From Pseudomonadota bacterium (lineage in GTDB: Bacteria > Desulfobacterota > Syntrophia > Syntrophales > UBA8958), in assembly GCA_030057915.1 (NCBI GenBank), contig JASGUC010000037.1:1-64000 (forward strand): a stretch of DNA of 64,000 nt. The letters run 5' to 3'. Position numbers and translations under genes: made by a program. Position 1 is the first letter of the stretch. Each line of letters begins with the position of its first letter. The notes beneath the pieces were generated by a model that ran no database searches, was not told the DNA's origin, and saw only the letters and a list, made by a program, of their open reading frames with translations. This document shows, piece after piece, positions 21,388-47,549 of the stretch.

Positions 21388-21697
21388 ATAAAACAGCGCC
21401 CTTTGCATTGATTTCTTGAAAGAAAAAATCATTCATCGCCAATCTTCGTTGCACTTCCTCTGCAGAGCGCACAAGGATGTCCACCGGAAATTCGGGCCGT
21501 ATATGCTTAATTATTTCGATGGCTTTGGATACATTTCTACCGGAAACGGACGGCATGATCACTAAGAGATCGACATCGGAATTCTCTGATGCCTCACCAC
21601 TGGCATAGGAACCGAACAGGACGATGCGCACCGGATGAAAGCCAGCGACGATTTTGTCAGACATTTCAAGAATCTGTTTGAAAGAGGCTTTCTTCAT
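21359..21697 (-). CDS. MNT-type minimal nucleotidyltransferase
   Basis: 112 residues, the normal size. The polymerase-beta-like active site is LFGSYASG...NSDVDLLV (GS with two Asp), with a third acidic residue in FPVDILV. In HEPN/MNT modules this protein nucleotidylates (AMPylates) the HEPN toxin and thereby neutralises it. The HEPN partner follows with a 29-bp overlap but is interrupted by a stop codon, so this enzyme may now lack its natural substrate. Intact in sequence. Confidence 0.88.
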   Translation of the reverse strand: MKKASFKQILEMSDKIVAGFHPVRIVLFGSYASGEASENSDVDLLVIMPSVSGRNVSKAIEIIKHIRPEFPVDILVRSAEEVQRRLAMNDFFFQEINAKGAVLYEADNKRVD

Positions 21698-21712
21698 GCC
21701 GCATTCCTCAAA

Positions 21713-22060
21713 TCATCTTTTCCGGATAAACACAAAGTCCCCGCCGTCGTGGCCGCAGGCGCGGATGGTCTTGTATTCCGTGATCTGCTCGCTTCGCCCG
21801 GCGACGGCCTCGCGGATCTGGCCGGCAAAGAGTTCCTGAGCCGTGAAGGATTGCCGGAAAAAATCCCCAGTTCCAGGTAATCCCGCACCTGCTTGACGGT
21901 TTTGAATTTCCAGCCAATGTCATGAATCATATCTTCGGCCTTATCTTGGTCTTCGGTCGGCATATTCCGGAAAATCAGATAGGCAAATTTCTGCATAACT
22001 CCTCTGAAACGTTCCACTATTTTTGTCGTCAGTTCATCGGCGGATTTCGGCCCCGCTTTC
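21713..22060 (-). pseudogene. Remnant of a FlgT-like exported protein fused to an unknown tail
   Basis: The stretch GPKSADELTTKIVERFRG... DMIHDIGWKFKTVKQVRDYLEL closely parallels the C-terminal third of the intact gene at 25555-26691 (GPKSADDLTAKIVERF... DLGWKYKTVKQARDYLEI). Upstream it is cut at a 'CCGCTTTCGCGGGAATGACG' repeat (22053-22073). Downstream, near 21850, a frameshift leads into SFTAQELFAGQIREAV... GGDFVFIRKR and a stop at 21713; I do not recognise that tail. It is a dead paralogue fragment. Confidence 0.75.
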
Positions 22061-22230
22061 GCGGGAATGACGTTTTGGCGCGCTTTGTGTAATTTTGCAA
22101 AGGTCTCCTGTTTTCCACAGCCCACAGCCCGCCATTTCCCTCCATTTTAATGTAGTGCGGAGTTTACTCCTTTTATGTCGCACGATTTGATTTTAAATCA
22201 CCGTATCTGCCGGCCCGCACGGACAGCCTA

Positions 22231-22345
22231 CCTATAGCCTATAGCCCATTGCCCACAGCCTACCTATAGCCCACAGCCCACAGCCCGCCTATAGCCTATA
22301 GCCCATTGCCCACAGCCTACCTATAGCCTATAGCCTATTGCCCCC
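22231..22345. repeat. Tandem repeat of CCTATAGCC/CCCACAG units, 57-bp period
   Basis: Two near-exact copies of a block beginning CCTATAGCCTATAGCCCATT start at 22231 and 22288, with further partial units up to the stop codon of the caspase gene at 22346. Shorter CCCACAG units recur at 22115-22130. No coding capacity and no spacer-repeat structure. 22126-22230 holds nothing I recognise. Confidence 0.85.
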
Positions 22346-25222
22346 TTACGGCAACACCAGCGGGAAATCCATTCCCTGGAGGTTCTTCTGGGGGATTTGC
22401 TCGTAACCCCATTTCTTGTAAGTTAGAGCGGGCATGGTTTCTTCTACATAAGTCGCCAGACCGTTTACCGTTACCTTGCCTTCCCGGTCGCGGGCCGCGC
22501 CGTTGATGGCCTGCAGGAGTGTATAGGTGAAAACTCCGTGGCCTTCATAGCCTTCCAGGGCAGCCTGATCCTTACTGGAGGCCACCAGGGTCGAGCGCCC
22601 CGTCGCTTTTCCCAGACGGGCCACGGCCGTTTTCTCCACGATGTTACGGGAAGCCACCGCCTCGGCAAAAGAGCCGCTGTTGCAGGTGTCCAGTAGCAAG
22701 AGAGATTTCAACGCCTGGATATGCGTCAGGTTTTTCATCAGATCCTCTTTGGAGACTCCCTGTTTTGCAATCGCCTCCTCGCCGGTAAAGCGGAAATCGA
22801 CGGGAAGAAAATAGTAGTTGCCGTCCTTTTCGTAGGTTATTCCGTGGCCGGCCAGGAAAAGGATAAACACGTCTTCGCGTCTGGTTTGACGTCCCAGTTC
22901 CTCAAAAGCCAGCGCCAGCCCCGCACGGGTAGCCGCCTCGTCATAAACGGTTTTCACTGCAATTTTTCCAAAGATGCGCTTTGCTCCCTTTTGGATGCTC
23001 TTGACCAGCTCGTCTGCGTCAGCCCGGGGATATTTCAGGCGCAGGTCGCCGTCGCGGTATTTATTTACCGCCACTGCCAGTATGTAAAGGTCCGGCTTTT
23101 CCTTATAGCCGGAGTGGAAGGTCAGCCTGGCTTCCGCCCGGTTCGATTCGATACTGTTATCTTTGTTTCTGGCCATGAGGCCGATGATGTTTTCTCCTTC
23201 CGTCAGAGTCACTGTATGGCGGAAGCTTTTACAGGCCGGCTTTTTACCGCCGCCTGTTCCCTGGCTTACCAGCTTCAGGGTGCGGCCGTCCGGGTCAACG
23301 ATCACCGGCATGCCGTTTAAAAAGAGCGTCACATCCCCGATGCCGCCTCCCTGGTCGCAGATTTCTCCCTGAACGTCTATATCGCGCTTTTTTGCCGTCG
23401 CGGATGATGTGAAAAGCCGTGCGGCGGGCGGCAGCGTGTTTGCGGAAAGCAGCCTGCCGATATTGACCTTTTGGGCGTATTCGGAGATGTCTTTGCCCTC
23501 GAACTTGGCCAAAACCAGGTCGGGGCGGTAAAACTGATCGTAGAGTTTATCCACGCCGATAAACTCGGCCGCCCGGTCTTTTCCCCGGTTCAAGTGGTAG
23601 CCGATGAGTTCCGTCCCGCCTTCCGAGGCGTCAAAAAACCCCTCCGGTGTCCAGACCACCCAGCGCCTTCGATCCTTGTGGGGGAAGAAGGCCAAAAGCT
23701 CCCTGCCATCGCTTAGGCGATACCAGCGGATCGTGCCGTCACTAAAGGCGGCCACGGCCAGGCGACCGTCCCGGGAGATATTCACCGCCCAAGCCGCGCC
23801 GGGCACGGAGGTTCGCCATTTTTCATTGCCGCTACGGTCAAAATAGCGCAGCGACCAATCTGCTCCCAGCAAAAAGGCGTCCCGGGACGGGGAAATGGCG
23901 AGGCTGCGGGATCTTTCGTATTGCGCAAGCGCCAGCGCCCGGCCGTTAAGTTTGGGAGAGGTTGTATATTTCCAGTCCGTAACGGAAAGGCTCTTCGTAT
24001 CCGGGGGATAAAGGCCGGATGTCTCCCCGCCGGGGGAGAGTGTCCGGGTGGAAAGGTCAAAGGTGGCGGGGGATTTGCCCAACACTTCATATCCGAAGCT
24101 CACCTTTTTGCCGTCCGCCGAGAGACGGAAGCCTTCCCAATTACCCCGGTAATCCGCAATCTGTGCGCTTTGATAAAGGATCCGCCGGCCGTTTCTGTCC
24201 AGGACGCCAAAGGCGGGGTCATACGCGCCATAGACGACGCCGCCCGCGGCAAGGGGTAGGATGTGCATGATGGTCATGGGCGAGCCGGGTAGCTCCCGGC
24301 GCACCCCCCGGCCGTCGTTATCCCAGGAAAGAATGGGGCATTGGCCGCCTTTGTAATATATTCCCCCCGCATAGAGCCTGCCGTCGGGGGAAAAGGAGAC
24401 AAGGCCGAGATTGCCCTTATCCACGCCGGAGGTATCCGGGGAATAGAGGTGGGAGAGGTCGGCGGCGGAAAGGACATCCACGCGGGTGGAATCGGCAAAG
24501 CCCACGGCCAGCTTCTCTCCATCGGGGGAAAAGGAAAGGGAAAATGGTTCTTTTCCCCCCGGGGCCTTTTGTCTCGCGAGAAGCTTCAGGCCAGCCGCGC
24601 CGGGACGGTTATAGAGGCGGATATAGCCGTCCAAGGAGGCGGCGGCCAGACGGCCCCGACGGTCAAAAGCGACGGAGTAGGAGTTAGAGCCGTAATCCCT
24701 GTCCTCGCCCGCCAGCTTGCCATCGGCGGTGCGGAAGACCCGGATGCCGTTATCACCACCCAGAGCCGCCGCCAGGTAGCGCCCGTCGGGGGAAAAGGAA
24801 AGATGCAAGATACAGTTGGGGAGTCCCGTAATCCTGCGGGTCAACTCCCCCGTGGGGCGGTGGAAAAGGTAGATGGTGTCGTTTTCTTCCCATTTTCCTG
24901 TCCACCCTCCGCAGGCCACGGTCTGCCCGTCGGGGGAAATCGCCACGGCGTAAATCTTTCCTTCGTCTCCCTCGCCCATCGGGGGCCGCAGGACGGAAAG
25001 GAGCCGGCCGGTGGCGAGTTCCCACACCCGGACGCTCTTGTCGCTCGAGGCGGTGACGAGATACCGGTTGGCGTCATCCACGCCGATGCGCCCGATCTTC
25101 TCAGTGTGCATCCCCGTTTCGATTTTCAGGATCGGCTCCCTGGGCGGTTCCGCCGCCCTTCCCCAACCCACGCCGTTCACCATCGTCAACACGACCACCG
25201 CGCACAGTATCGCCCGCCACAT
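22346..25222 (-). CDS. Exported WD40-repeat caspase-like protease, paralogue A
   Basis: 958 residues. A signal peptide (MWRAILCAVVVL... GRAAEP) is followed by ~520 residues of WD40/beta-propeller repeats with recurring SFSPDG and AISPDG turns. A linker leads to a peptidase C14-like caspase domain: YILAVAVNKYRDGD start, catalytic His793 in LAGHG and Cys847 in LDTCNSGS. The C-terminus ends DFPLVLP. The start at 25222 is set by GGAGGTTCGATT before ATG and by the signal peptide. The propeller half and the upstream ~300 bp are nearly identical to those of paralogue B at 28577-31444, while the caspase halves are clearly different. Likely periplasmic or surface-exposed. Substrate unknown; the propeller presumably senses or docks a partner. 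It precedes nothing co-directional downstream except debris. Confidence 0.9.
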   Translation of the reverse strand: MWRAILCAVVVLTMVNGVGWGRAAEPPREPILKIETGMHTEKIGRIGVDDANRYLVTASSDKSVRVWELATGRLLSVLRPPMGEGDEGKIYAVAISPDGQTVACGGWTGKWEENDTIYLFHRPTGELTRRITGLPNCILHLSFSPDGRYLAAALGGDNGIRVFRTADGKLAGEDRDYGSNSYSVAFDRRGRLAAASLDGYIRLYNRPGAAGLKLLARQKAPGGKEPFSLSFSPDGEKLAVGFADSTRVDVLSAADLSHLYSPDTSGVDKGNLGLVSFSPDGRLYAGGIYYKGGQCPILSWDNDGRGVRRELPGSPMTIMHILPLAAGGVVYGAYDPAFGVLDRNGRRILYQSAQIADYRGNWEGFRLSADGKKVSFGYEVLGKSPATFDLSTRTLSPGGETSGLYPPDTKSLSVTDWKYTTSPKLNGRALALAQYERSRSLAISPSRDAFLLGADWSLRYFDRSGNEKWRTSVPGAAWAVNISRDGRLAVAAFSDGTIRWYRLSDGRELLAFFPHKDRRRWVVWTPEGFFDASEGGTELIGYHLNRGKDRAAEFIGVDKLYDQFYRPDLVLAKFEGKDISEYAQKVNIGRLLSANTLPPAARLFTSSATAKKRDIDVQGEICDQGGGIGDVTLFLNGMPVIVDPDGRTLKLVSQGTGGGKKPACKSFRHTVTLTEGENIIGLMARNKDNSIESNRAEARLTFHSGYKEKPDLYILAVAVNKYRDGDLRLKYPRADADELVKSIQKGAKRIFGKIAVKTVYDEAATRAGLALAFEELGRQTRREDVFILFLAGHGITYEKDGNYYFLPVDFRFTGEEAIAKQGVSKEDLMKNLTHIQALKSLLLLDTCNSGSFAEAVASRNIVEKTAVARLGKATGRSTLVASSKDQAALEGYEGHGVFTYTLLQAINGAARDREGKVTVNGLATYVEETMPALTYKKWGYEQIPQKNLQGMDFPLVLP

Positions 25223-25530
25223 AATCGAACCTCCTGCGATATTTTTCTTTTTCACATGTGCCACCCGCGCAAACAGCCACCGGGGATGTATTGCCCGCCC
25301 GGAGCGCCCATCTCTCCCGATGCCCCGCCCGAATCGGGATAACGATGGAAATGACAACCGAAAATTGACCACCTTTGATAACCCGATTTTGACCACTGAA
25401 AAACTCCACTCCCGCCTCGATATCGTCATTCCCGCGCAAGCAGGAATCCAGTGTTTTCAGATATTTTCTGGATGCCGGGTCGGGCCTGCCCCGTATCACG
25501 ATACGGGGCCCGGCATGACGTGGAAGACAG
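23651..25530. repeat. 1.9-kb duplicated block, copy 1 (promoter plus propeller of caspase A)
   Basis: Aligns with 29870-31755 in the same orientation. The left edge is sharp: both copies share CCAGACCACCCAGCGCC onward, while the sequences just before it differ. The right edge fades out within upstream DNA near 25530/31755. The block covers the upstream region, signal peptide and WD40 half but not the caspase half. Confidence 0.9.
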
Positions 25531-25554
25531 TTTTTCAAAGGTATCTATAGATGA
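25223..25554 (-). promoter_or_regulatory. Upstream region of caspase A with IS21-like end and palindromic repeat
   Basis: Nearly identical to 31445-31765 upstream of caspase B. It contains GACAACCGAAAATTGACCAC and CCCGATTTTGACCACTGAA (25354-25405), spaced like the multiple terminal repeats of IS21 elements, then a 'CATTCCCGCGCAAGCAGGAATCC' type repeat (25428-25450) and a hairpin-forming CCCCGTATCACGATACGGGG (25489-25508). No promoter could be named with confidence. Conservation between the paralogues suggests shared regulation or recent copying. Confidence 0.55.
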
Positions 25555-26691
25555 CTACTTCCCGCTCTCCCGGTCAAAGACGACCCGCTGCCCGATCGTG
25601 TCCACCGGCTCATAGGCCAGACCGGACTTCTCCAGGGACTTGCGCACCTTACGACGAATCGTGTTCATGTCGCCGTCGGTGAAGACCTCGATCTCCAGAT
25701 AATCGCGGGCCTGCTTGACAGTCTTGTACTTCCACCCGAGATCGTCCATGACGTCCTCGACCTTGTCCTGATGCCTCACGGGCATGTTCTTGAAAACCAG
25801 ATAAACGAAGTTTTGCCGCACCGTGCTGAAACGCTCGACTATCTTCGCCGTCAGATCATCGGCGCTTTTGGGACCCACGGACTGGACGATGCGCGTCATG
25901 GCCTCCTCGAAACCGCCGCTGCCGGTAACGACGTTTTCCGGATTGTTGATATTGCAGAAAAGCTCCCCCGTGGTCAGATCGTAAGATTTGAGAAGCACAT
26001 TCGCCCGGAGTTTCCCGTAGCCTTCATCCGTCCCCCGCTTCTGGGCGTCGAAGCTCACGATCACGACGGCGTCGGCCTGCTCCTGAGAAGCCAGGGCCAT
26101 GGCTGTCTTGTCGTCCCTGATCTCCAGGGCGGCCCGGCCGCGGATGCGGATCAACTGGTCGGGGAGGAAGACACGGAAACCGTGGCCGACAAGGCGATCT
26201 TCGATCAGGGACATCAGGTGCTTCACTGGCCTGGAATCGAGGGGCAGGTCGTCTTTCGCTTCCGTGGAATAGACGACCACGATGCGCCGCTGGCTGAACT
26301 TCGTCTCCTGGAAGACCTTCTTGGCCCGGGGGTCATTCATGTAGGCCTGAAAGGCGTCTTTCAGCTTGCCGTCGTCCACCGTCACCCTGGCCTTGATTTT
26401 ATAAGTTCCCTCGATGGGGTCCTTCCCCTCGCTGATAATGTCGTACTTCTTCACAACACCGGCGCTCGCGGAGGCGATATGGTCCGACGCGACCTTGAAG
26501 TCGCTGACCATCGTTTTGCTCTCCACATAGGTCCCCAGCGCCTGTTCGATGGCCATGCGCATGGCGTTATTGATCGCCTGCTGCTTGCTCGCCCCCTCGG
26601 ATACAACCGTTACCTCCGCGGCCCGGACAGTTGCCGCGCAAAGCAGGCAACAGACCGCGACCATCACTGATACCTTAAAACTCCTTTTCAT
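25555..26691 (-). CDS. Exported FlgT/LPP20-like protein
   Basis: 378 residues with a signal peptide (MKRSFKVSVMVAVCCLLCAATVRA). The N-terminal domain reads VVSEGASKQQAINNAMRMAIEQALGTYV...KYDIISEG, the pattern of the FlgT N-terminal/LPP20 fold, in which a short pre-domain with conserved 'A...A...A' helix is followed by a beta-sheet. A middle TolB-N-like part (RRIVVVYSTEAKDD... RLVGHGFRVFLPDQL) resembles domains found in periplasmic proteins that sense or assemble envelope structures. No flagellar genes are nearby, so a flagellar role is not implied. Start at 26691 rather than 26736 because it begins the signal peptide and follows AGGCGGATAATC. Downstream of the DUF4384 gene by 42 bp, so co-transcribed. 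A broken copy of its C-terminal part lies at 21713-22060. Confidence 0.75.
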   Translation of the reverse strand: MKRSFKVSVMVAVCCLLCAATVRAAEVTVVSEGASKQQAINNAMRMAIEQALGTYVESKTMVSDFKVASDHIASASAGVVKKYDIISEGKDPIEGTYKIKARVTVDDGKLKDAFQAYMNDPRAKKVFQETKFSQRRIVVVYSTEAKDDLPLDSRPVKHLMSLIEDRLVGHGFRVFLPDQLIRIRGRAALEIRDDKTAMALASQEQADAVVIVSFDAQKRGTDEGYGKLRANVLLKSYDLTTGELFCNINNPENVVTGSGGFEEAMTRIVQSVGPKSADDLTAKIVERFSTVRQNFVYLVFKNMPVRHQDKVEDVMDDLGWKYKTVKQARDYLEIEVFTDGDMNTIRRKVRKSLEKSGLAYEPVDTIGQRVVFDRESGK

Positions 26692-26732
26692 GATTATCCG
26701 CCTCCCTATTGTAATTGTACATGTCCTTGTCC

Positions 26733-28196
26733 TCATTTATCCCTGGTCTGGAGAAAAACTGTGTCCTCATATAGCGGCACGGCCACCGCCTTCGCCATGC
26801 CCCGGTAATAGTCAACAAGGTCGTCCTGGTTGATGCTGAGCTGGGTGGCCAGTTCCTCCTGTATCTTTTCCCGCTTCACCAGGCTCCGGGTATTCCCGGT
26901 GAAGCTCCGGGAGGCGACGGCACTGTCGATCCGGGGCAGCTTGAGGTCCCGTTCGCAGGCGAAGGCCTTGACCAGTTCGGCGCCATAAGGCGGCTCCACG
27001 ACTAGGGACCATGAGTCATTTGCAGATGGTATCGTATAGAGCAGGTTCGGTTGCAGAGGCTTCCCGGCCCCATGTATGTTCGGGTAGAGCAGGCCTACTT
27101 CGCCCTGGGCATTGATGTTGTAAATATAAACATAAAGAGGTTTGGCCACCATGACGTGGAACTGGACTTCTTCCCCCGCATAGTATTCCTGATGCTTGTC
27201 ACCCTTGCTGGTGCTGATCTTTATCATTCGTTCCCGACTTTCCTGGGCGGCATCGGCCTTTTCCGCAAGGCTCTTCAACTCGGGATTCTCCAGGTTCATG
27301 GTCACGAGATTCCTGTCGATCCGTTCATCGGCGGATGCCAGGACCTTCCCCTGGAGGTCCTTGATGGTCAGGGAGACATGGACGAATTTATTGTCGGACG
27401 AGTAAAATCCCTCGAAATAGGCATCGGCGCCCGTCAGGACGGCATCGCTCGCCTCCAGGCGCGAGACCTTGCCGGCCTGGACCTTGAGGGAACGAGTATT
27501 TCTCATACTCTGCATGACGGGCTTTTCTTCGAGAACTTCGGCCTGCCCCGATGTTGTAATGGCGCCCTTGACGCAGGAGGTCACATAACGGGAAAAATCA
27601 CTGGCGTAGCGGTAATTGGCCTCCACGACGGGGGACATAAATATCTTCTGGCCGCGGAGGTTCTGGGTCAGGTGCGCCGAGAGCTTCCTGAGTCTGCCCT
27701 CCAGATTTTCCGCAAAGGCGTCCGGAGGGAGGGCATCGAGGCGCAGGGACAGGCTGACGCTCTTGTAGCCGCCGGCGCTGGTGGCCTTGCGATACCTGAC
27801 AAAGACGCGGAGGTTGCTCTTGTCCTTCTGGTAGGAGATGGTCACGAAATAGTCGGCGTCCTTGATTTCATCGACAAGTTGAAAGCCCCCCTGGCTGAGC
27901 GCCGCCTCCATCTCGTTGCGCAGCAGGGAGGAAAGGTTTGATGTCTCGCCGGTGATGCCGTCCCGGATGAAGGCCTTGTCAACGTATAGCTTCTTTTCTC
28001 CCAACTGGGCCTTCAGCGCCCTTGACGCCTCGGCGGCAAGGGCGTCCAGACCGGCCGGCTCGTGGGCCCGGGGCGCCGCCCGGGCGGTGCTTGCAAAAAA
28101 GACGGTGAAGATGACGACGAGGGCGACAAGGGCGACGAGGGCGACGAGGGCGACGACAATCGAGGGCGTCGCCCCGGTTCGTTTGTTCAAAATCAT
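26733..28196 (-). CDS. Exported DUF4384-domain protein
   Basis: 487 residues. The signal/anchor region contains four exact Ala-Leu-Val triplets encoded by a 9-bp tandem repeat. A curli-assembly or TolB-N-like domain follows (AAEASRALKAQLGEKKLYVDKAFIRD... near 40-60; DADYFVTISYQKDK), then a second beta-rich part, and around 330-420 the DUF4384 signature YAGEEVQFHVMVAKPLYVYIYNINAQ ends with LLYPN. In many bacteria DUF4384 is found in or beside exported caspase and CHAT proteins, matching this neighbourhood. ATG 28196 is chosen because it follows CCAAGGAGACCGGAT. Function unknown; a periplasmic partner of the caspases is plausible. Confidence 0.78.
   Translation of the reverse strand: MILNKRTGATPSIVVALVALVALVALVVIFTVFFASTARAAPRAHEPAGLDALAAEASRALKAQLGEKKLYVDKAFIRDGITGETSNLSSLLRNEMEAALSQGGFQLVDEIKDADYFVTISYQKDKSNLRVFVRYRKATSAGGYKSVSLSLRLDALPPDAFAENLEGRLRKLSAHLTQNLRGQKIFMSPVVEANYRYASDFSRYVTSCVKGAITTSGQAEVLEEKPVMQSMRNTRSLKVQAGKVSRLEASDAVLTGADAYFEGFYSSDNKFVHVSLTIKDLQGKVLASADERIDRNLVTMNLENPELKSLAEKADAAQESRERMIKISTSKGDKHQEYYAGEEVQFHVMVAKPLYVYIYNINAQGEVGLLYPNIHGAGKPLQPNLLYTIPSANDSWSLVVEPPYGAELVKAFACERDLKLPRIDSAVASRSFTGNTRSLVKREKIQEELATQLSINQDDLVDYYRGMAKAVAVPLYEDTVFLQTRDK
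28116..28151. repeat. 9-bp tandem repeat (four units) inside a signal-peptide coding region
   Basis: Four units GACGAGGGC / GACAAGGGC / GACGAGGGC / GACGAGGGC in direct succession. On the coding (minus) strand each unit encodes Ala-Leu-Val, extending the hydrophobic core of the DUF4384 protein's signal peptide. Unit gain or loss would keep the frame but change the length of the hydrophobic segment. Confidence 0.9.
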
Positions 28197-28249
28197 ATCC
28201 GGTCTCCTTGGATCTGTCATTGCCGGGTACAAGCCCCGGCGGAGCTTAT

Positions 28250-28460
28250 TTTTCACCCGCACCAGCGGGAAGTCCGCCTCGATGCCGTTGCCGGGGGGCG
28301 TGAATGCGTTATTTCACCCGCACCAGCGGAAAGCCCTGTCATCGAGAATCCACGACAGGGAACTGCATTGCTACCGGAAAGGATACGGCGACCGTCCGGT
28401 GAAAAGGCCACTGAGTTGACGGCCACTGAGTTGACCCTGACTGAATGCCCTGATCGCACA
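28250..28460 (-). pseudogene. Fragments of WD40-caspase genes (propeller piece and two C-terminal tails)
   Basis: On the minus strand 28385-28459 reads GHSVRVNSVAVNSVAFSPDG and RRILSGS, a WD40 blade. At 28312-28337 and again at 28252-28275 the sequence encodes FPLVRVK, the closing residues expected of exported caspase proteins here (compare DFPLVLP and DFPIAVKR). So at least three scraps of related genes are stacked between the DUF4384 gene and caspase B. 28461-28576 shows no further recognisable piece. Confidence 0.65.
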
Positions 28461-28576
28461 TACGTTTCCGATGAAGAATGACTTTGTGCAACAATCCTCC
28501 GTGAATATCAAGTTCAAATACCTCTGCTTCGACCGTGTCAGCCCGCGGGGGGCCAGAATGTTCGCAACGTTGACAT

Positions 28577-31444
28577 TTATCGCTTCACCGCAATCGGAAA
28601 ATCGGGAATGGTCCGCGGCTTGGTGGTGGTTGGGGTCTGTTTGCCGCCGGTCAACTCCTTCACCCGCTCGGACAGATACAAATCCAGCATGTTGATCGTG
28701 ATGCTTCCCTTGCCATGATAATCCGCCCGGCCGCCGATGCCTTCCACCAGCGCTTTGGTGAAGGCCCCATTGCCCCAGGCCTTCTCTTCCAGAGAATATT
28801 GCCTGCCCGTGGAGGAGGCAAAGACCACCGCACCGTTTTCCGCGCTGGCCAGTTCATTGACCACGGCATTGATGTCCGCCGCCCCGCGTCTTGCTCCCAT
28901 CACATTGCCGGAATGGCACGTATCGACAAACAGAATCGCCTTTCCCGCCAGCGACGCCATCGTGTTTTTGATGTCGGAAAAAGCCACGCCTGTTCTTTTG
29001 AGTCTTTCCGGATTGGCATTGACCGGCAGATAATAATAAATCCCCGCCTGGTCGTTGACGCCGTGACCGGCCAGAAACACCACCGCAATATCCTTGCTGG
29101 TCGTCTCCTTTTGCAGCCAGTCCAGCCCGTCCAGAATATCGTCCTTTGTGGCCTGCCGGTCCGTTAAAATCCGTGCGGTCACCTCGCGGTAAAGGCCGCC
29201 CTTCTGACCGGTCATCGCCCGGGCAAAGTCGCGGGCATCCTTGGCGGCAAAAACAAGCTGCAAATCCGCTTCTTCATAGGCGCTGACCCCCACGGCCAGA
29301 ATGTAGAGTTTCGGTTTGATGACAAACTCCTCCTGTGTCGTCTTGCCTCGCCAATAGAGGCGAATCGTGGCAGGTTCGCTTGCGGCATTACGATTTTCCG
29401 CAATAACCGAGACCTCCGCATCCCGGGGCGGAATTGTTACCCTGATTCGCCTGGTATCTCCCGTGGGTTTGATAACCAGACCGCGCTCCGTGGCTACCGG
29501 CCGGCCATCCACCAATGTCCGGATGGCCGTCACCGGCGCGTCCGACGGGCTCCGCAGGGAAAGGTCAAGAGTCACCTCCGTTTGCGAGACCGCCGCGCCA
29601 TCGGCAGGCGAGAGGATGGTCACCACCGGAGGCAGAATGTCGGCAACGGCCTGCTCTGCCCGCCTGCGGCCGGATTCTTCATTGGCGAGCCGCAGCGCTT
29701 CCTCTTCATCCCCTGTTTCCAGAACTCTGGCAAGGACATCGGGGCGGTAATAGGTGGCCCGAAAGCGGGAAGCGGGAAAGAAATCCGCCGCCATGTCCTT
29801 GCCGCGGTTGAGATGCCAGCCGATGAGTTCCTCCGCGCCCGGTGAGGCATCGTAGTAGCCGGAAGGGCTCCAGACCACCCAGCGCCTTCGATCCTTGTGG
29901 GGGAAGAAGGCCAAAAGCTCCCTGCCATCGCTTAGGCGATACCAGCGGATGGTGCCGTCGCCAAAGGCGGCCACGGCCAGGCGGCCGTCTCGGGAGATAT
30001 TCACCGCCCAGGCCACGTCGGGCACGGAGGTTCGCCATTTTTCATTGCCGCTACGGTCAAAATAGCGCAGCGACCATTCCGTTCCCAGCAAAAAGGCGTC
30101 CCGAGAGGGGGAAATGGCGAGGCTACGAGCAACTTCGTATTGCTCAAGCGCCAGCGCCCGGCCGTTCAGTTGGGGGGAGGTTGTATATTTCCAGTCCGTG
30201 ACGGAAAGGCTATATGTATCCGGGGGATAAAGGCCGGATGTCTCCCCGCCGGGGGAGAGTGTCCGGGTGGAAAGGTCAAAGGTGGCGGGGGTTTTGCCCC
30301 ACCATTCATACCCGAAGCTCACCTTTTTACCGTCCGCCGAGAGGCGGAAGCCCTCCCAATTAGCCCGGTAATCCGCAATCTGGGCGCTTTGATAAAGTAT
30401 CCGCCGGCCGTTTCTGTCCAGGACGCCAAAGGCGGGATCTGCTGCGCCATAGACGACACCGCCCGCGGCAAGGGGCAGGATGTGCGTGATAGTGTCCGGT
30501 GAACCGGGCAGCTCCCGGCGCACCCCCCGGCCCTCGTTATCCCAGGAAAGAATGGGGCGTTGGCCCTCTTTGTAATATGTTCCCCCCGCATAGAGTCGGC
30601 CGTCGGGGGAAAAGGAGACGCTGCTGAGATCGCCGTTATCCACGCCCGAGGTATCCGGGGAATAGAGGGGGGAGAGGTCGGCGGCGGAAAGGACATCCAC
30701 GCGGGTGGAATCATTAAATCCCACGGCCAGCTTCTTTCCGTCGGGGGAAAAGGAAAGGGAGTATGGCTCTTTTCCCCCCGGGGCCTTTTGTCTCGCGAGA
30801 AGTTTCAGGCCACCCGCGCCGGGACGGTTATAGAGGCGGATATAACCGTCAAAGGAGGCGGCGGCCAGACGGCCCCGACGGTCAAAAGCGACGGAGTAGG
30901 AGTTAGAGCCGTAATCCCTGTCCTCGCCCACCGGCTTGCCATCGGCGGCGCGGAAGACCCGGATGCCGTTACGACCACCCAGAGCCGCCGCCAGATAGGC
31001 CCCGTCGGGGGAAAAGGAGAGGTGCAAGATGCAGTTGGGGAGTCCCGTAATCCTGCGGGTCAGCTCCCCCGTTGCGAGGTGGAAAAAATAAATGTAGGCA
31101 CTGCCTTCCCAATCCCAGCCTGTCCACCCTCCGCAGGCCACGGTCTGCCCGTCGGGGGAAATCGCCACGGCGTAAATCTTCCCTTCATTACCCTCGCCCA
31201 TCGGGGGCCGCAGGACGGAAAGGAGCCGGCCGGTGGCGAGTTCCCACACCCGGACGCTCTTGTCGTCCGAGGCGGTGACGAGATACCGGTTGGCGTCATC
31301 CACGCCGATGCGCCCGATCTTCGCCGTGTGCATCCCCGTTTCGATTTTCAGGATCGGCTCCCTGGGCGGCTCCGCCGCCCTTCCCCAATCCACCCCGATC
31401 ACCATCGTCAACACGACCACCGCGCACAGTATCGCCCGCCACAT
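28577..31444 (-). CDS. Exported WD40-repeat caspase-like protease, paralogue B
   Basis: 955 residues with the same plan as paralogue A: signal peptide, beta-propeller of WD40-type repeats to about residue 525, linker, peptidase C14 domain. Catalytic His794 is in LAGHGVND and Cys843 in VDTCHSGN. The first ~525 residues match paralogue A at roughly nine of ten positions by eye; beyond WVVW the two differ strongly. B has an Ig-like insert (VVTILSPADGAAVSQTEVTLDL) where A has a shorter one, and a different caspase. The C-terminus ends DFPIAVKR. One propeller segment differs sharply (TGWDWEGSAYIYFF in B against TGKWEENDTIYLF in A). Start 31444 is supported by GGAGGTTCGGGT before ATG. Likely periplasmic; substrate unknown. 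Confidence 0.9.
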   Translation of the reverse strand: MWRAILCAVVVLTMVIGVDWGRAAEPPREPILKIETGMHTAKIGRIGVDDANRYLVTASDDKSVRVWELATGRLLSVLRPPMGEGNEGKIYAVAISPDGQTVACGGWTGWDWEGSAYIYFFHLATGELTRRITGLPNCILHLSFSPDGAYLAAALGGRNGIRVFRAADGKPVGEDRDYGSNSYSVAFDRRGRLAAASFDGYIRLYNRPGAGGLKLLARQKAPGGKEPYSLSFSPDGKKLAVGFNDSTRVDVLSAADLSPLYSPDTSGVDNGDLSSVSFSPDGRLYAGGTYYKEGQRPILSWDNEGRGVRRELPGSPDTITHILPLAAGGVVYGAADPAFGVLDRNGRRILYQSAQIADYRANWEGFRLSADGKKVSFGYEWWGKTPATFDLSTRTLSPGGETSGLYPPDTYSLSVTDWKYTTSPQLNGRALALEQYEVARSLAISPSRDAFLLGTEWSLRYFDRSGNEKWRTSVPDVAWAVNISRDGRLAVAAFGDGTIRWYRLSDGRELLAFFPHKDRRRWVVWSPSGYYDASPGAEELIGWHLNRGKDMAADFFPASRFRATYYRPDVLARVLETGDEEEALRLANEESGRRRAEQAVADILPPVVTILSPADGAAVSQTEVTLDLSLRSPSDAPVTAIRTLVDGRPVATERGLVIKPTGDTRRIRVTIPPRDAEVSVIAENRNAASEPATIRLYWRGKTTQEEFVIKPKLYILAVGVSAYEEADLQLVFAAKDARDFARAMTGQKGGLYREVTARILTDRQATKDDILDGLDWLQKETTSKDIAVVFLAGHGVNDQAGIYYYLPVNANPERLKRTGVAFSDIKNTMASLAGKAILFVDTCHSGNVMGARRGAADINAVVNELASAENGAVVFASSTGRQYSLEEKAWGNGAFTKALVEGIGGRADYHGKGSITINMLDLYLSERVKELTGGKQTPTTTKPRTIPDFPIAVKR

Positions 31445-31755
31445 ACCCGAACCTCCCGCGATATTTTTCCTTTTCACATCTGCCGCCCGCGCAAACAGCC
31501 GCCGGGGATGTATTGCCCGCCCGGAGCGCCCGTCTCTCTCGATGCCCCACCCGAATCGGGATAACGATGGAAATGACAACCGAAAATCGACCACCTTTGA
31601 TAACCCGATTTTTACCACTGAAGAACTCCACTCCCGCCTCGATATTGTCATTCCCGCGAAAGGGGGAATTCTGTGTTTTCAGATGTTTTCTGGATGCCGG
31701 GTCGGGCCTGCCCCGTAGCGCGATACGGGGCCCGGCATGACGTGCGAGACAGTTT
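29870..31755. repeat. 1.9-kb duplicated block, copy 2 (promoter plus propeller of caspase B)
   Basis: Partner of the block at 23651-25530, offset about 6.22 kb. Only small indels separate the copies, including one in the variable propeller segment around 31075-31130. Contains the same palindromic and IS21-like motifs upstream of the gene. Confidence 0.9.
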
Positions 31756-31775
31756 TCAGAGGTCCCGCTATGAGA

Positions 31776-33929: not shown

Positions 33930-34145
33930 AGTCGGGCATCCGCGCCGGGGGAGGGTCGAGCCAGGGCGGCGCGGGTTCCTGTCCGTCAGGATAGCTACGA
34001 GGCGCATGGGCGAGAGGGAGAGAAGGCCATGCGCCAGAGGCAAGCGTCCGGCAGCGATGCCGGCGCGCCGGCATAGGATAACATATAGATATTATAGGTA
34101 GAATCACCGAGGGTCAAAAAGTTTTGCCGGAGCGAAAAGTGCTCC
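33930..34145 (+). repeat. Dispersed repeat, copy A (~215 bp) with central palindrome
   Basis: Begins GTCGGGCATCCGCGCCGGGG, includes the 18-bp perfect palindrome ATGCCGGCGCGCCGGCAT at 34057-34074 and ends near GGTCAAAAAGTTTTGCCGG AGCG. Matches copy B (52711-52925) over its full length with few differences. An open frame (VPVRQDSYEAHGREGEKAM...GAPA) is kept in both copies, so part could once have been coding. Confidence 0.88.
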
Positions 34146-34296
34146 CGCCACTTGCGCATTCCCCACCAAATAGGCACCGCCGCGCCTGGTTTCGGTGAGA
34201 GATACCCCTTGACTTGAGAAACACGCGCTTCTATACTCCGAACCGTGCAAAGCAACGTCTTATCAATTCAATTCAATATCAATATCAAGGAAGGTT

Positions 34297-34421: not shown

Positions 34422-36704
34422 ATGGCGTCGATAATCCGGCGATATGTTCTGGTTTCAGTCCTTTTTGCGGCGGTGTTACTCAGCGGTTGCGCCGCATCCT
34501 TCAACAGCCGGGGATTAAATCTGGTTGCCGAGGCGAATTATACGCAGGTGGTCAACGAATTTGAGCCGCGGGGCGGACAGTATGCCGGCCTTCCTTTTCA
34601 GGATTTAATCTACCTTTGCTCCGCTTACGGAGAACTTAAAAACTACAGTCGTCTTTTCCCGTGTCTGACCGCGGCGCAGGCCAAGATCGACGGGGGCGAT
34701 TTCATGGCCGACGCCTGGAACCATTCGGCGACGCCAGCGCGCCTGAAAGCCATCGCCCTGATCGAGCTGGGGCAGTATGAGGAAGCGGTCCGTGCCGCCG
34801 CGCAGGCCCAAAAAATTGTTGCCGACCATAAATTGACGCGATTTGAAGAGGTGAAAGTTCTGGAGGTTCTGGGCATGGCCTATGCCCTGGCCGGCAAGAC
34901 GGACCAGGCCATCGCCGCGGCCGATGCGCTCAAGGGATTGTATCTGGGCTATCCCTACATGCTGGTTGCGGATGACCGCAATATCGGGCTTGCCAAAATT
35001 TATCTCCTCCTCAAAAAATATCAGGACGCCATCAACGTCGTTTCTTACAAGTTTGAAGATTCCAGTTCATTCTTGAAGTCCTTTGCCGGATGGGATGTTT
35101 TCGTCAACAACAAACTGTCCTTTGAATTCATCAAAAACAAAAGCCTGCTGGAAGTGGGGCGCGTGTCCGAAGCCAAGCCGGGCTACGACGCGCTTTTGGC
35201 GTATCCCCATATTCAGGACCGCGGCGAAATGCACTGGATTCTGCTTTATGACCGGGGGCGAATGGCCGAGGGGGAAGGCAGCATCCGGGAGGCCATCGGC
35301 TTTTACGAAAAAGCGGTGGAGGTTATCGAAAAGCACCGCTCCACGATCAACGTCGAAGCCGGCAAAATTGGCTTTGTCGGGGACAAACAGGCCGTTTATC
35401 ACCGCCTCATCCGCGCGCTTTACGCCGAACGGCAATATGCCAGGGCATTTGAATACGTAGAGCGCTCCAAGTCCCGTGCACTGGTGGACCTTCTGGCGGG
35501 CAAACGGGATTTTGCCGTCAAAACGACCGGAGACGCCCGCAAGGCGCTAAACAGTCTGGCGCTGCAGGAAAAATCGGAAGAAGAAATACTGGCGCAGGAC
35601 TTTAAAGCGGACAAATCCCGGAGCCGGAGCATCGCCATCAAGGCCCGCGAGGACCTGCGGCGCGACGCGCCGGAGCTGGCTTCCCTTGTCGCGGTTGCGA
35701 CGACGCCCGCGGCGGCGATTCAGTCTCTTTTGGCACGCGAAGAAACCCTGGTGGAATATTATTACAGCGGCGATGACATGTATGCCTTTATCCTTTCGGG
35801 CGGCGGCCTGCAAAGCGTCAGGCTTCAGACGGCAGGGCTTTCCGACGAGGTGGCCGCTTTCCGTGCGGCACTGGAGAATCCCCGGTCGAAAAACATGCAG
35901 GCGTCGGCGGGTCGGCTTTACGTGCGGCTCATCAAACCTCTGGAGGGCGCCATTGCCGGGCGGGATGTGGTGATTGTCCCTCATGGACTGCTGCATTATA
36001 TTCCCTTTAACGCCCTGCACGACGGAAGAGGGTTTCTGATAGACCGCTGGAGAATTCGGATAATGCCCAGCGCCAGCGTCATGCGGTATCTGGTGGACAA
36101 GAAAAGCGACGCGCCGGGAGGCATTCTGGCGTTCGGCAATCCGGATTTGCGCAATCCCGAGCACGATCTCGCTTTTGCCCAGAAAGAGGCACAGGACGTG
36201 GCCAAAATCTGGCCGGGCTCGAAAGTTTATGTGCGCCATGCGGCGACGGAGGAGGCCTTCTATAGGAACGCTTCCGGATTCAATATGATTCACTTTGCCA
36301 CGCACGGCCGGTTTTCACCGGAAGCTCCCCTGCAATCGGCGCTCCTGCTGGCCCCTGATGCCAAATCCAGCGGTCTTCTGACGGTGGACAAACTCTACTC
36401 CATTCAGATCGGCGCCTCTCTGGTAACGCTGAGCGCGTGTGAAACGGGTTTGAGCCTGGTGGCCCAGGGGGATGACCTGGTGGGGTTGACAAGAGGGTTT
36501 CTGTATGCCGGGGCACGTTCCGTGGTCGCCAGCCTCTGGAAGGTGGATGACCTGGCCACGGCCCACCTGATGATGCAATTTTACCGGGGTTTACAGAAGA
36601 CGGACAAACTTGAAGCGTTGCGCGACGCTCAGTTGTACGCACGCAAGGAATATCCTCATCCCTACTTCTGGGCGTCATTTCAGCTAACCGGCAGCGCAAA
36701 ATAG
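34422..36704 (+). CDS. TPR-containing CHAT-domain lipoprotein (caspase-like protease)
   Basis: 760 residues. Lipobox LLSGC with Cys23 predicts a lipidated envelope protein. Residues ~40-400 form tetratricopeptide-like helical repeats. The C-terminal ~300 residues are a CHAT domain (caspase HetF-associated with TPRs): catalytic His in HFATHG (H628) and Cys in LSACETG (C673), closing with HPYFWASFQLTG. All expected residues are present. ATG 34422 is preceded by GGAAAGGGAGAGCTTT. Nearby exported caspases and DUF4384/FlgT-like proteins suggest related envelope functions. Orphan CHAT tails at 18885-18945 and 20130-20200 show that this family was once more numerous here. Confidence 0.92.
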   Translation: MASIIRRYVLVSVLFAAVLLSGCAASFNSRGLNLVAEANYTQVVNEFEPRGGQYAGLPFQDLIYLCSAYGELKNYSRLFPCLTAAQAKIDGGDFMADAWNHSATPARLKAIALIELGQYEEAVRAAAQAQKIVADHKLTRFEEVKVLEVLGMAYALAGKTDQAIAAADALKGLYLGYPYMLVADDRNIGLAKIYLLLKKYQDAINVVSYKFEDSSSFLKSFAGWDVFVNNKLSFEFIKNKSLLEVGRVSEAKPGYDALLAYPHIQDRGEMHWILLYDRGRMAEGEGSIREAIGFYEKAVEVIEKHRSTINVEAGKIGFVGDKQAVYHRLIRALYAERQYARAFEYVERSKSRALVDLLAGKRDFAVKTTGDARKALNSLALQEKSEEEILAQDFKADKSRSRSIAIKAREDLRRDAPELASLVAVATTPAAAIQSLLAREETLVEYYYSGDDMYAFILSGGGLQSVRLQTAGLSDEVAAFRAALENPRSKNMQASAGRLYVRLIKPLEGAIAGRDVVIVPHGLLHYIPFNALHDGRGFLIDRWRIRIMPSASVMRYLVDKKSDAPGGILAFGNPDLRNPEHDLAFAQKEAQDVAKIWPGSKVYVRHAATEEAFYRNASGFNMIHFATHGRFSPEAPLQSALLLAPDAKSSGLLTVDKLYSIQIGASLVTLSACETGLSLVAQGDDLVGLTRGFLYAGARSVVASLWKVDDLATAHLMMQFYRGLQKTDKLEALRDAQLYARKEYPHPYFWASFQLTGSAK

Positions 36705-36990
36705 GTAACCCTGGCATCATGCTGAAAAAAAACGGGGGCGGGAATCAGGCACCGCACGAGCGCAAACAGGGGAGGCTCAACTGCTGCCCCCCCCCCAATA
36801 TCCTTGCCGCTGCCTATCACCTGAGCGGACACCCCGGGGTAGCCGTCTCCGCATCCCTGGCATACAAAAACGTTCACCTACGCAGCCTTGCCGGAAGGAC
36901 GCCACAGTAAAGGCAAAACTTTGGACGCCCTGTTTTTCCCGGTATTGTTCTGGCACTCATCGATCTGCATCCCCTTTTGTCTTCCCGTGT
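36705..36990. other. Intergenic between convergent CHAT and BREX genes
   Basis: 286 bases between two converging genes. Contains a run of about ten C residues near 36787 and no recognisable gene or clear terminator. Confidence 0.5.
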
Positions 36991-39030
36991 CTATCCGGCA
37001 CCTTTGATCAGCGCCAACTCCAGCACCTTTTCGATACTCTCCACCGGCGACAATTTGACTGCCGCAAGCACATAAGCCGGCAGCCCTTGGGCTTCCTCGA
37101 GATTGTCGGCTGGTAAAAGCACCTCTTTGACGCCGGCATCGTAGGCCGCACGGACCTTCTGCTGGATGCCGCCGACCGGAAGCACCTTGCCCATTATCGT
37201 GATTTCACCGGTCATGGCGAGGTCGTTCCGAACGGGAATCTTTTTCAAGGCCGACACGATCCCGGTCACGATCGTGATGCCGGCAGACGGCCCTTCCTTC
37301 GGCACGCCCATAAAGGTCGCCAGGGCCGCAACATCATAGCTTTTGCGCCATTCAGCACTTATCCCGAGGTCTTCATGCCTTGCCCGGATATACTGGGCCG
37401 CCGCCTCGATGCTCTCCCGCATGACGCGCTGAATCGATCCCAGCGGCACAATACGCCCTGATCCTTTGGTCACCTGCATCTCGAAGTGCAGAATGCAGCC
37501 GTGGTCCCCTTCGACGGCCAACCCCACAACCTCGCCGATGGAAGGTTGAGCAGGAAGGACGACGCGCTGAACGCGTTTGCTGTCCGGAAGATCAGGGACA
37601 ACTTGCCTGCCCGACGGTTTCATCAGCGCTCCTAAAGAGATTCGGTCATATTCTCCAGGCGCAATCAAGTGAAGTTGATCGCGTACTCGCTGGCGCAGTT
37701 CACAGGACAAACTCAGGATGTCCTCAAGTTCCTCATCGGTAATCATGCCGTCTGGATGAAGCAGTTTAAGCAAAGCGGAGGTGGTTTTCATGACGGCGCG
37801 TTGATCCCGTCCGGAAACGCCGTGGGTTCTTCTCGCATGATCAACAACATCGAAACGGGGTCGCGCCGCACCGAGCAGGTCAATGCGGCGCAGCTCGTGC
37901 ATGATTTCGCAAAAGTAATCCGTAATAAATCCGTAGTCCCGCGAATAGCTGTCCGGTGCCAGCTTGGGAATTTCCCAGCCGGGGAGATAGGCATGAATGC
38001 GGTCCAGAAAGGCGATGACCTGCAGAAAATCCGGGAGCGGCTCAAAGAGGTGATAGTATTTCTCATGCGGGAGCTTGCCCTGGACGTCGAGATTGCCGAC
38101 AAAAACAAGACTGGCGAAGGCCAGGATTTCTTTCTTCCCCCTGCTGAATTTTGCATCCTGCATGTACCCTTGCATAATGCTTACGAAAGACCGGGGATCG
38201 GTAAAGTCGGTATTGGCAATTTCGTCAAAAACCACCGCGTCGCGGGTACCGACCTCTCCTATCCTGCCGGTATTTAGATTGATGAAAAGCTGGGCCGGGG
38301 TGGCCTTGCCGCCGGACAGGACATGGGCATAATAAGAAATATTCCGATAGAGATACGTTTTGCCCGTTTCCCGCGGTGCCAATTCCACCATATTGACGTT
38401 TGTTTCGACGAGGGGGATACAGCGGCAGAGATACAGGAGTTTCTGACGCCTGCTCATCGTGTCCGGCGCCAGGCCACAGGAATTGATCAGGATGTCTATC
38501 CATTCGTCAGTTGAAAACTCCTTACGCTTTTCGATGTATTCATCAAGGTTGATGACACTGACCTGGAACGGAGTGAATCCCGTGATCTTGAACGGCCTGA
38601 TTTTCTTATTGTGAATCTCGGTTTCGTCGTATGTCAGGTCGATGGTGCCCCACATCCCGCCGGAAAGGAGCATGGGATATTGACGAACGATGTTTTCCGG
38701 GATGTTCACAAAGTTCTCGTTGATGGCCGAAATGGAACCCCAGTACTTGTCTTCCGTCTCAACCAGCCGGGCTTCAAGACTTGCAATCACGGAATGGCGG
38801 CGGTTTTCACGGATGTAGTGCCTGATTTTCTCGGCTTCCGCTCCGTAAACAAAGGTCTCTTTCAGCCTCCTCACGACCTTTTCCATGTCCTCGTGGAAGG
38901 TCTCCTCCGCACAGTAGTTATCGATCAGGTACTCCAAGACGTAGCGGGGGAATTCGTCCACACCGGTATTGATCGTATGGGATTTGTTGACGACCTTCCC
39001 CTTGAAAACATCTTTCAGTTTCAGATTCAT
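36991..39030 (-). CDS. brxL: BREX Lon-protease-like protein BrxL
   Basis: 679 residues. The N-terminal half has an AAA+ core with a modified Walker A ([14 protein letters not shown]) and Walker B VVFDEIAN. The C-terminal half is a Lon-like domain with the Ser in EGPSAGIT and Lys in [10 protein letters not shown]; in studied BrxL proteins the complex acts as a DNA-binding hexamer in phage restriction. The last gene of the BREX operon, 7 bp behind pglZ. BrxL belongs to type 1 and type 4 BREX, while the methylase here is of type 3 style. Intact. Confidence 0.95.
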
Positions 39031-39037
39031 AGGTTTC

Positions 39038-41983
39038 TCATATCATATTTTTCGGGGTCAGACCCAGTATTTTCCCCAGATGAGCGGGCACTCGGCGCAC
39101 GATCTTTTCTGAGTTCAGCCGCAAGGAAAATCTTATTGTCCGTGCCTTTCTTACTGTGCGCTGCCCTTCCCGGTACGTGACGCTGATTCTCAGCGTTCTT
39201 TCCATGATGCCGATCTTCCGTTCATCATTGGAGGCGTCCGCCGCATCCGGTATAAAGCGGAAAACAACTTCCCCACCCGTGGCGGATACATACTGCACTT
39301 GATTCGGAATAGACGCCGACCCCTCCTTGTTCTGATAGACTGCCTGTACTTCAATCCGAATTTCCCGGTTTTTATGGGATTGTGTAAGCTGGACGGGCAT
39401 ACGGAACTCGGTCACTTCGCCTTCAATCAGCTCCGACGGTCCTGTAATCGCGCCAAGGGCAAGCAACCCCTCTTCCGGCGCTTTCACGCGCATGGCAAGC
39501 ATGGGCACCAGCATCTCCTGGATTGAGATCCCGCCATGAGAATAGGCGTCCGGGTTAAAGTTCGACTTCGGCCTGGCCAAGGCGTACCCTGTCCGGGGGA
39601 AGATGATTGATGTGTATTTCTTTTGCCAGGTACGATTTGCGGCCCGGTCATAAGCCTCGATGGAATCAGGCATCCGCAAATCAGAGACAGGGAACTCCCA
39701 AACGTTGTCGCGGACTTTACGGGAAGCGCCGACGCTTCCCAGTGCCTGCCGGAGCCATGCGTTGAGATAAAAGCAGTCCGTTGTCTCATTCAGCCAGGAC
39801 AAATCAATTTTGATCCGCTCGCGACCGATCGCACCGAATCCATGGTCGGCTACGACAAATACCTTGGTGTCAGGCGACAGGCCGCGGATGATGGCCATAA
39901 CCTCCGTATCGATGATGTCTTTGATATGCTGCTGATAAATAAAGGCAAGGGGCCTGCCGGGAATGCAGCGACCATCGGGCAGCGTCTTAACGGGTATCTT
40001 GTGGAGTTCCTTGTCACAGAGTTCAAAAATGAAAAATTCGCTGTTGCCTGCTCGATAACGGACCGTCTCTCCCGTTCCCAGACCCTCGGGAGCGACAACC
40101 TCGACCTCTCCCGTAAAGCCGAATTCGCGCTTCATGGCTTCTTTAAGCAGGACATCCTCGCCGCTTCTGGTGTCGAAAGCGTTGGGAAAAGCCCCGGCAA
40201 AAATCGCCTTTCTGCTGATATGCGTCTCTGTCGGCAAGAGGGAAACAGCCGGGTATTCCGCAATGATCTCCATGCGATCTTCAAAGATCGGCCTTACCAA
40301 TTCATCCCAAATATCGTACCGCATGCCGTCGAATACGAAAATCACGGCTTTCTCTTTTTGCGGATCCCAATGGGGCTTAAGACAACGGCGCAGGAACTGG
40401 CTCGTCAACCTCACTTCAGACGAATCTGACGCAACCCAGGTCCTGTATTTTGCCGCAACCAACTCCTGATAGCGGACATTCACTGCCGCGAGCGCTTTTT
40501 GCATCTCATCCCGCAGAGCGCTTACACATTGCCTGATGCGGTCTCGTGCGTCCAGAAAAGCGGGCGGCAGCTCGTTTTCAGGACGGGGGAGGAAATCGGC
40601 GCTGATGACCAGCCGTTCGAGGGCCGACAGATAATATTCAAAGCGGTTGACGCGACGGTCATTCCACAGGGTTCTGAACCATTCCAGGGACAACTCGGAT
40701 ACCGGTTTCACTGTGAGGCTTTTGATGGCGTCATCCAAAACATCCCGAATTTCTTGAATGGATATCGCCCGCCGATATGCGGCTTTCAGGTTTTCCCAGG
40801 CCGGAGAAGGCCGTTGCTCGATAAAAAGGCCTCTTTTGTCCTCCGGGGCGGCGAACAGGAAGTGTGCGACCTTTTCATGGGCGGCGCGTGGCACGCCACC
40901 GGACAGGAGATTGTCCAGGGCAACCAGAAGCGCCAGGGAGCGAAGCAAAATGGAATACCGTTCCTTTCCAATCACCTCGGCAAAACGGCCGTTTGCCGTT
41001 ATCCCCAGTTGGTCGAGAAGAATGAGGGTCAGCGCATCACTGGTCAGAGAGTCCTCCACCTCCTGCAGATCGCGGTGAGCCCTCTGGGAATCAATTGCCA
41101 CAAGCTCGGGAGCGGCTTCGCGAATCAGATCCGCATCCATTTCGCTGAAGGCCTTGAGGTCCGGGTCGATACCGGCAAGCAAGAGCTTCCAATGGTCAAC
41201 GTGCTGGATCAATATCGTCGAGAGATAAAAGGCCCTGACGATCAACTCAGGCGGCGAGTCGGCAAACCAGCGGAAGGGCGCCGGGGCGCTGCGCAGTTCA
41301 GCGCGGATAGAATGGGCAACCTCCGGGGCAAGCGTATCGAGTTCCTCCAGGGCCGGGTATCCGATAAGGCCGATGCGCCAGTAGCTTTTTGCCTCCGGCC
41401 GCTTGAAGGCGGCGTCGGGGACGCCCAAGGCGGAATAGGCGACAATCGTTTTGAAGTCGTGATCGGTAAATCGCGTCGGATGGGCAACGCGCAGGCTCGC
41501 ATGTGCTTTGAGAGCAGCGTCGATGCACCCTATAATGAGCCGTGCGAACCGTGGATCGTTGGATTCTTGAGGCCAGTGCGGATCACCTGTCTTTTCGATG
41601 AGGAACTGCCGTAAACTGATATCGATCCTCGCCGCTGCCGCCGTTTTGACAAGAATATCGGGATAGAAAGGCGGGGGAGCTTTCGACAATGTTGCCTGCG
41701 CCCTTCTTCGCGCCGGTGCGCGATCGATAAGCAGAAGCTTCTTGGCGTCCTTGGAAATAGCCGCCTTTTCAAAGAGTTCCCTGAAGACAAGATTCGTGGA
41801 TGCGATGATCACCGTGAATCCGTTCTCATTGGCAAACCGGTGGACGGCGCCGTCCGCTTCCGGAAGAAGTCGCAGCGAATCCTGGACAAGCAGGATCTGC
41901 TCATCCTTGAGCGCTTCCAACTTTTCAAGAACCCAGGAGGACAATGCAGAATGATGAGTGCAGAATGATGAAGTATCAGTCAT
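39038..41983 (-). CDS. pglZ: BREX alkaline-phosphatase-like protein PglZ
   Basis: 981 residues. Core signatures are [17 protein letters not shown], a metal-site region FDGMR, and [11 protein letters not shown], the alkaline-phosphatase superfamily pattern of PglZ. PglZ is the universal BREX marker and is needed for both methylation and exclusion. The first ~14 residues ([14 protein letters not shown]) are encoded by a TGCAGAATGATGA-type repeat that belongs to the flanks of the adjacent S23 gene; the ancestral start probably lay nearer [11 protein letters not shown]. Start ATG overlaps the S23 gene end. Confidence 0.94.
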
Positions 41984-46711: not shown

Positions 46712-46722
46712 AAACAATTCCT

Positions 46723-47467: not shown

Positions 47468-47549
47468 CAGAAAATTCTCCTAATCACGAGACTCGGAAGG
47501 TACTCGGAAGCCGACAGTTTCCGAGTACCTTCCCGTGCAGCAAATTTCG

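Follow-up and report, generated by a model that had tools for sequence, protein, structure and literature searches.

Gene organization and domain architecture

Two genes, A and B, encode predicted exported WD40-caspases on the minus strand of the window, i.e., the whole 64,000-nucleotide stretch of a draft-genome contig that was analyzed here (Table 1). The order of transcription is B, the gene for a DUF4384 protein, the gene for a LipL46-like protein, and A. Both twins follow the same plan: a signal peptide (identified by inspection rather than by a predictor), a WD40 region, a helical and Ig-like linker, and a C14 caspase. Matches to Peptidase_C14 scored 54.4 bits in A and 59.5 bits in B (Pfam cut-off of 21.4) and those to WD40 scored 82 to 83 bits. 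The NCBIfam model caspase_w_EACC1 (NF047832) gave 76.8 and 88.6 bits, below its curated cut-off of 140, and a Big_7 Ig match in the B linker was weak and also below cut-off. The putative catalytic His-Cys dyad is intact in both proteins (H793/C847 in A and H794/C843 in B) and conserved in every relative that spans the C14 domain. Neither protein had a Pfam match to a STAND/NB-ARC ATPase. The listed ORF starts (25429 in A and 31651 in B) lie too far upstream: homologues start close to the signal peptide, which makes the first ~69 ORF codons upstream DNA and places the likely ATG codons at 25222 and 31444.

AlphaFold models (mean pLDDT of 76 for A and 80 for B) place a seven-bladed propeller at approximately residues 37 to 345, followed by further blade-like strands to ~516, helices, a strand-rich linker, and a caspase region from ~713. 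Model residues 39 to 353 superpose on 7bie_A with a Z score of 37.4 and an rmsd of 1.8 over 283 residues. Fold searches were dominated by the propeller and added nothing on the caspase part, and a sequence search for solved structures found no match to either effector half.

Table 1. Positions of features at the locus of the twin WD40-caspase genes
Feature	Position	Strand	Remarks
Gene A	22346-25222	minus	ORF list; Pfam WD40 and Peptidase_C14; 958 aa from likely start MWRAIL
A-type effector half	22349-23650	minus	434 aa; H793 and C847 intact
Putative recombination junction in A	23644-23656	minus	Codons 523-527, RWVVW/TPE; informative-site flip
Shared 5′ half of A	23651-25542	minus	~92% nt identity to 29870-31763; ~320 bp upstream, signal peptide, and WD40
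Locally divergent blade loop in A	24840-24905 (approximate limits)	minus	Counterpart in B at about 31059-31127
LipL46-like protein, predicted exported	25555-26736	minus	NCBIfam LipL46 match weak, far below cut-off; between the twins
DUF4384 protein, predicted exported, candidate partner	26733-28262	minus	Pfam DUF4384, 69.7 bits; between the twins
Decayed WD40-caspase scraps	28250-28450	minus	WD40 blade piece (VNSVAFSPDGRRILSGS) and two caspase C-terminal scraps (FPLVRVK); frames read
Gene B	28577-31444	minus	ORF list; Pfam WD40 and Peptidase_C14; 955 aa, architecture as A
B-type effector half	28580-29869	minus	430 aa; H794 and C843 intact
Putative recombination junction in B	29863-29875	minus	RWVVW/SPS; informative-site flip, codons 523-527
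Shared 5′ half of B	29870-31763	minus	~92% nt identity to 23651-25542; same components as in A

Shared 5′ half and junction

The initial annotation described twin genes with near-identical upstream DNA, signal peptides, and WD40 propellers joined to strongly different caspase halves, and alignment of the two loci agrees on both counts. The common region spans ~1.9 kb. Self-BLAST returned it as a single block (23562-25542 versus 29781-31763; 90.8% identity over 1,984 bp), of which the ~90 bp at the effector end are weak, leaving the strong part that is listed in Table 1. Amino acid identity is 91% in the shared half and 29 to 30% in the effector half. Synonymous divergence is far from uniform along the genes: dS is 0.16 to 0.17 in the signal peptide and propeller and saturated (pS of 0.71 to 0.74) in the effector half. 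This pattern of similarity is far beyond chance. The 5′ noncoding DNA matches as closely as the coding portion, and protein-level selection alone therefore cannot account for the likeness. The 5′ end of the block coincides with the border of a palindromic, repeat-like sequence (a GTCATTCCCGC-type element). The shared upstream DNA suggests that A and B may be regulated together; a search for promoter-like matches placed none within it.

Homology ends as abruptly as had been claimed, with identity collapsing at RWVVW/(T/S)P, encoded by GGCGCTGGGTGGTCTGG (the reverse complement of the CCAGACCACCCAGCGCC given earlier). The position was located by comparing A and B with their homologues in two multi-contig draft genomes, G004, from the genus of the source genome and with a single such gene, and G130, placed in another family and represented by a 6.3-kb contig that ends within the effector. 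Up to codon 523, 85 of 93 informative sites group A with B and G004 with G130; from codon 527, 341 of 345 group A with G004 and B with G130, and sites of the third pattern are few. Placing the flip in this four-codon interval raises lnL by 172. The boundary thus lies in the same four codons in all four genes, at the conserved RWVxW. Codons at this motif are nearly identical across tail types (e.g., CGC TGG GTG GTC TGG and CGC TGG GTA CTC TGG) and may have supplied a natural short homology that caused exchange at this point.

Relatives carry either effector type

Among the genomes searched, 155 from the order and 395 from the phylum, the propeller family was present in 16 and 20, respectively, including the source genome. 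Identity and trees distinguish at least five types of tail, of which the B type is the commonest; the A type occurs in A, G004, and G125. The A effector shares 80% of its amino acids with that of G004, 75% with that of G125, and 29 to 30% with that of B. The B effector is 92% identical to that of G130 and 79 to 80% identical to those of G051. The heads of G004 and G130 are each 82% identical to A and 81% identical to B, and their tails differ in kind: that of G004 is 80% identical to A and 31% to B, and that of G130 is 92% identical to B and 28% to A.

The trees of the two halves disagree accordingly. In the propeller tree, (G075,((A,B),(G004,G130))), support is 99/98 for A with B, 99/97 for G004 with G130, and 98/96 for all four. 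In the effector tree, B joins G130 (100/100), with the two G051 genes next, and A joins G004 and G125 (99/99). In AU tests, the propeller data reject {B,G130} at P = 0.00016 and {A,G004} at P = 0.0003, and the effector data reject {A,B} at P = 1.6e-38. Each of the pairs {A,B} and {G004,G130} combines an A-type with a B-type tail, which requires a minimum of two head-tail exchanges in this clade. In a propeller tree of 30 rows, the A-type tail requires three separate changes, two of them inside {A,B,G004,G130}, and the outgroup of these four, G075, bears a B-type tail. One propeller clade therefore occurs with either effector type rather than in a constant propeller-caspase pairing. Together with the contrast in dS, this mosaicism sustains the original suggestion that domain swapping or gene conversion produced one head shared by different caspase halves.

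More distant pairs were considered as direct proof of swapping and set aside. Effector identity exceeds propeller identity between B and G051 (79 to 80% versus 54%) and between A and G125 (75% versus 59%), but both halves show saturation at synonymous sites; the contrast thus partly stems from faster protein evolution in the propeller, and the case rests on the trees and the close pairs. Synteny gave no further link: no gene of the window is conserved beside the homologues examined, except for divergent DUF4384 genes at L039 and L050.

Two other genomes deserve mention. A Magnetococcales genome holds two copies of the WD40 head with 94% propeller identity (L035:7959-9761 and L036:3979-5775), which stop ~55 to 60 residues past the junction with no caspase tail in frame. 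The Nitrospirae MAG that contains L033 (G534) has 14 caspase-like matches, several of them clustered on contig C39.

Origin of the twin genes

Genes A and B were very probably shaped by recombination, through gene conversion or a comparable unequal exchange. As tandem paralogues, they would have undergone an event whose tract extended over the upstream region, the signal peptide, and the WD40 region, ending at the conserved RWVxW strand that links the last blade to the effector half. The effector halves would be old, separate families with their nearest kin in other genomes. The outcome would be one exported sensor or scaffold head and one 5′ region serving two different caspases with intact dyads.

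Whole-gene duplication followed by very fast, positively selected divergence of the effector over a conserved propeller would also yield identical architectures and propellers that are 91% identical. We regard this as extremely improbable: kin of each effector type, 75 to 92% identical, exist elsewhere (G004, G125, G130, and G051), so both types predate the split of the twins' propellers; synonymous saturation is confined to the effector; and the AU test opposes uniting the A and B effectors. Misassembly is scarcely more credible. The source genome is a draft of 64 contigs, and repeats that are 92% identical may mislead assemblers, but the mis-joining of two genes with similar heads permutes tails and cannot create 92% identical heads beside distinct tails. 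Moreover, both copies lie within one 83-kb contig with different flanks, and one head with either tail recurs in G004 and G130. A more serious but still rather unlikely alternative is a single step in which a copy of the promoter, signal, and propeller was placed before a resident or acquired effector half. The single block with its sharp end at the junction and its 5′ end at the palindromic element would fit such a fusion, as would the kin of the B effector in other families. However, the examined relatives of either effector type already have a full-length WD40 head, so this scenario has to posit a headless recipient, and the local loop difference within the propeller (see below) suggests repeated conversion.

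If recombination between paralogues is accepted, copying probably ran from B to A, a direction that we hold with moderate confidence. The A-type tail would then have gained a B-type head in two separate events, one in the source genome and the other in the lineage of G004. The reverse, in which A's head overwrote a G130-like ancestral head of B, is unlikely, though it draws on a real imbalance: B and G130 are 92% identical in the effector and 81% in the propeller, their fourfold divergence is 83/248 in the head and 39/176 in the tail, and a change point in this pair was matched by 14 of 500 shuffles. Control pairs of the same type nevertheless show a similar difference in rate between head and tail (84/249 versus 52/198 for G033-G047, a slightly smaller contrast), and in G033-G047, G033-G082, and G047-G082, as in B-G130, the head is equally or more divergent than the tail. 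The A-G004 pair shows the opposite imbalance (85/181 in the tail and 80/248 in the head), a moderate contrast from a comparison of few genomes. This imbalance and the B-type tail of the outgroup G075 fit copying from B to A. The earlier idea of a sensor that is kept while its protease varies thus holds for the common head but probably not for the direction, as the 5′ half seems to have been copied onto an existing A-type effector gene.

Probable further conversion within the family

The blade singled out earlier as the exception within otherwise near-identical propellers is indeed more divergent, with a local dS of 0.35 (codons 151 to 225 of the long ORF). Its loop differs in both length and sequence (GWTGKWEENDTIYLF in A and GWTGWDWEGSAYIYFF in B). 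Loop types cut across the phylogeny: that of A resembles the first gene of G051, that of B resembles L033, L039, and L034, and G004 and G130 share a third form. The G051 pair is the reverse of A and B, with homogenized tails (37/230 fourfold sites) and divergent heads (82/205). Its change point lies near residue 670, ~100 codons past the junction, and the pair therefore shows conversion between copies rather than reuse of the junction. Such conversion seems to be habitual in this family, and its tracts do not always end at the junction.

On a broader and tentative reading, to which we give somewhat less than an even chance, the RWVxW/xPxG(Y/F)(Y/F) strand would be a recurrent exchange point, tolerated functionally, across the exported WD40-caspase family. 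Conversion between copies would maintain a common, locally variable sensor while at least five caspase types swap across lineages. If so, a single envelope signal could be coupled to various proteases.

Caspase remnants

Caspase tail fragments at 28250-28340 had been taken as a hint of a pool of spare cassettes. The fragments exist, but as two scraps (28250-28345) of ~10 codons each, with only 18 bp exactly common to both, beside a scrap of a WD40 blade; they are too short to act as a cassette store and are most simply read as the remains of another WD40-caspase gene. Nor did genome-wide searches favor a pool. Those with the C14 profile and the whole of B recovered nothing besides A, B, and a third WD40-caspase gene on contig C42, so that the genome has three C14 domains, all in long ORFs; the search with the A effector recovered only A and B and no orphan effector half.

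Comparison with known systems

The twins resemble WD40-associated metacaspases and orthocaspases (Peptidase C14) in having a C14 domain with an intact His-Cys dyad. WD40 is the commonest extra domain of bacterial metacaspases (73 sequences, 10.9%; PMC3501461). Within the passages searched in a limited literature, no twin genes with a homogenized head, different caspase tails, and a fixed recombination junction were described.

In polymorphic toxins, the C-terminal toxin domain is replaced by recombination while the N-terminal region stays constant (PMC3482391). The twins are similar in that an exported 5′ part is constant, a 3′ catalytic part is variable, and the junction is sharp; a C-terminal catalytic part appears exchanged under a constant N-terminal part. 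Unlike polymorphic toxins, they come without standalone cassettes, an identified immunity gene, or a known delivery domain, and their tails are variants of one enzyme class rather than unrelated toxins. The neighboring DUF4384 and LipL46-like genes match no known immunity family, although immunity genes are often uncatalogued. Because no cassettes were found, we do not class the twins as polymorphic toxins, though their evolution is similar.

Apaf-1-type assemblies also combine a propeller and a caspase in one pathway, and the modeled propeller aligns to those of Apaf-1, as it does to many other WD40 structures. The twins differ in lacking a STAND/NB-ARC ATPase, in carrying the caspase in the same chain, and in their predicted export. 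They share shuffled modules and high-identity regions between loci with DGR-diversified conflict sensors, some of which carry caspase-like effectors (PMC10907252). In those systems the sensor varies by targeted hypermutation, whereas the twins have a near-constant head and different tails.

The proposed mechanism is ordinary recombination, and its precision and repetition make the twins a neat example of a sensor refitted with proteases. Recombination, besides slow divergence, would then shape WD40-caspase proteases, and their annotation by overall similarity would mislead. The same head with different tails, together with relatives that have either tail, offers a ready-made experiment in which ligand binding is expected to follow the head and cleavage specificity the tail.

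Neighborhood and possible function

To our knowledge, the targets and triggers of bacterial caspase homologues are largely unknown. Genes for DUF4384 proteins lie next to the twins and also next to the homologues at L039 and L050, a hint that the DUF4384 protein may partner with WD40-caspases. One possible but doubtful role is that the common head binds a single envelope ligand or partner and thereby permits two caspases that differ in substrate range to act, perhaps together with the DUF4384 and LipL46-like proteins encoded between the twins. Any adaptive value of this diversification is likewise conjectural. A role in antiphage defense was considered and rejected, as PADLOC gave only a generic caspase model and, for A, one weak partial HEAT/ARM match. 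The neighbors of relatives that were examined are housekeeping or unassigned genes, with no BREX-like cluster seen among them.

Such a cluster lies near the twins (34422-50117). It comprises a TPR-CHAT protein (34422-36704), BrxL (36991-39030), a divergent PglZ (39038-41983), a DUF6079/BrxC-like protein (42374-46717), and a PglXI-like methyltransferase (47550-50117). It is flanked by a 220-bp direct repeat with 94% identity (33930-34149 and 52709-52928), shorter inverted relatives of which occur at 4385-4460. Short tandem-like repeats (ACAGCCTACCTATAGCC...) directly follow the 3′ end of A (22223-22336). Farther downstream of A, a degenerate piece (21694-22125) matches the LipL46-like gene in its 3′ part (25694-25876), with 70% identity across 184 bp, which suggests an older duplication of that gene.
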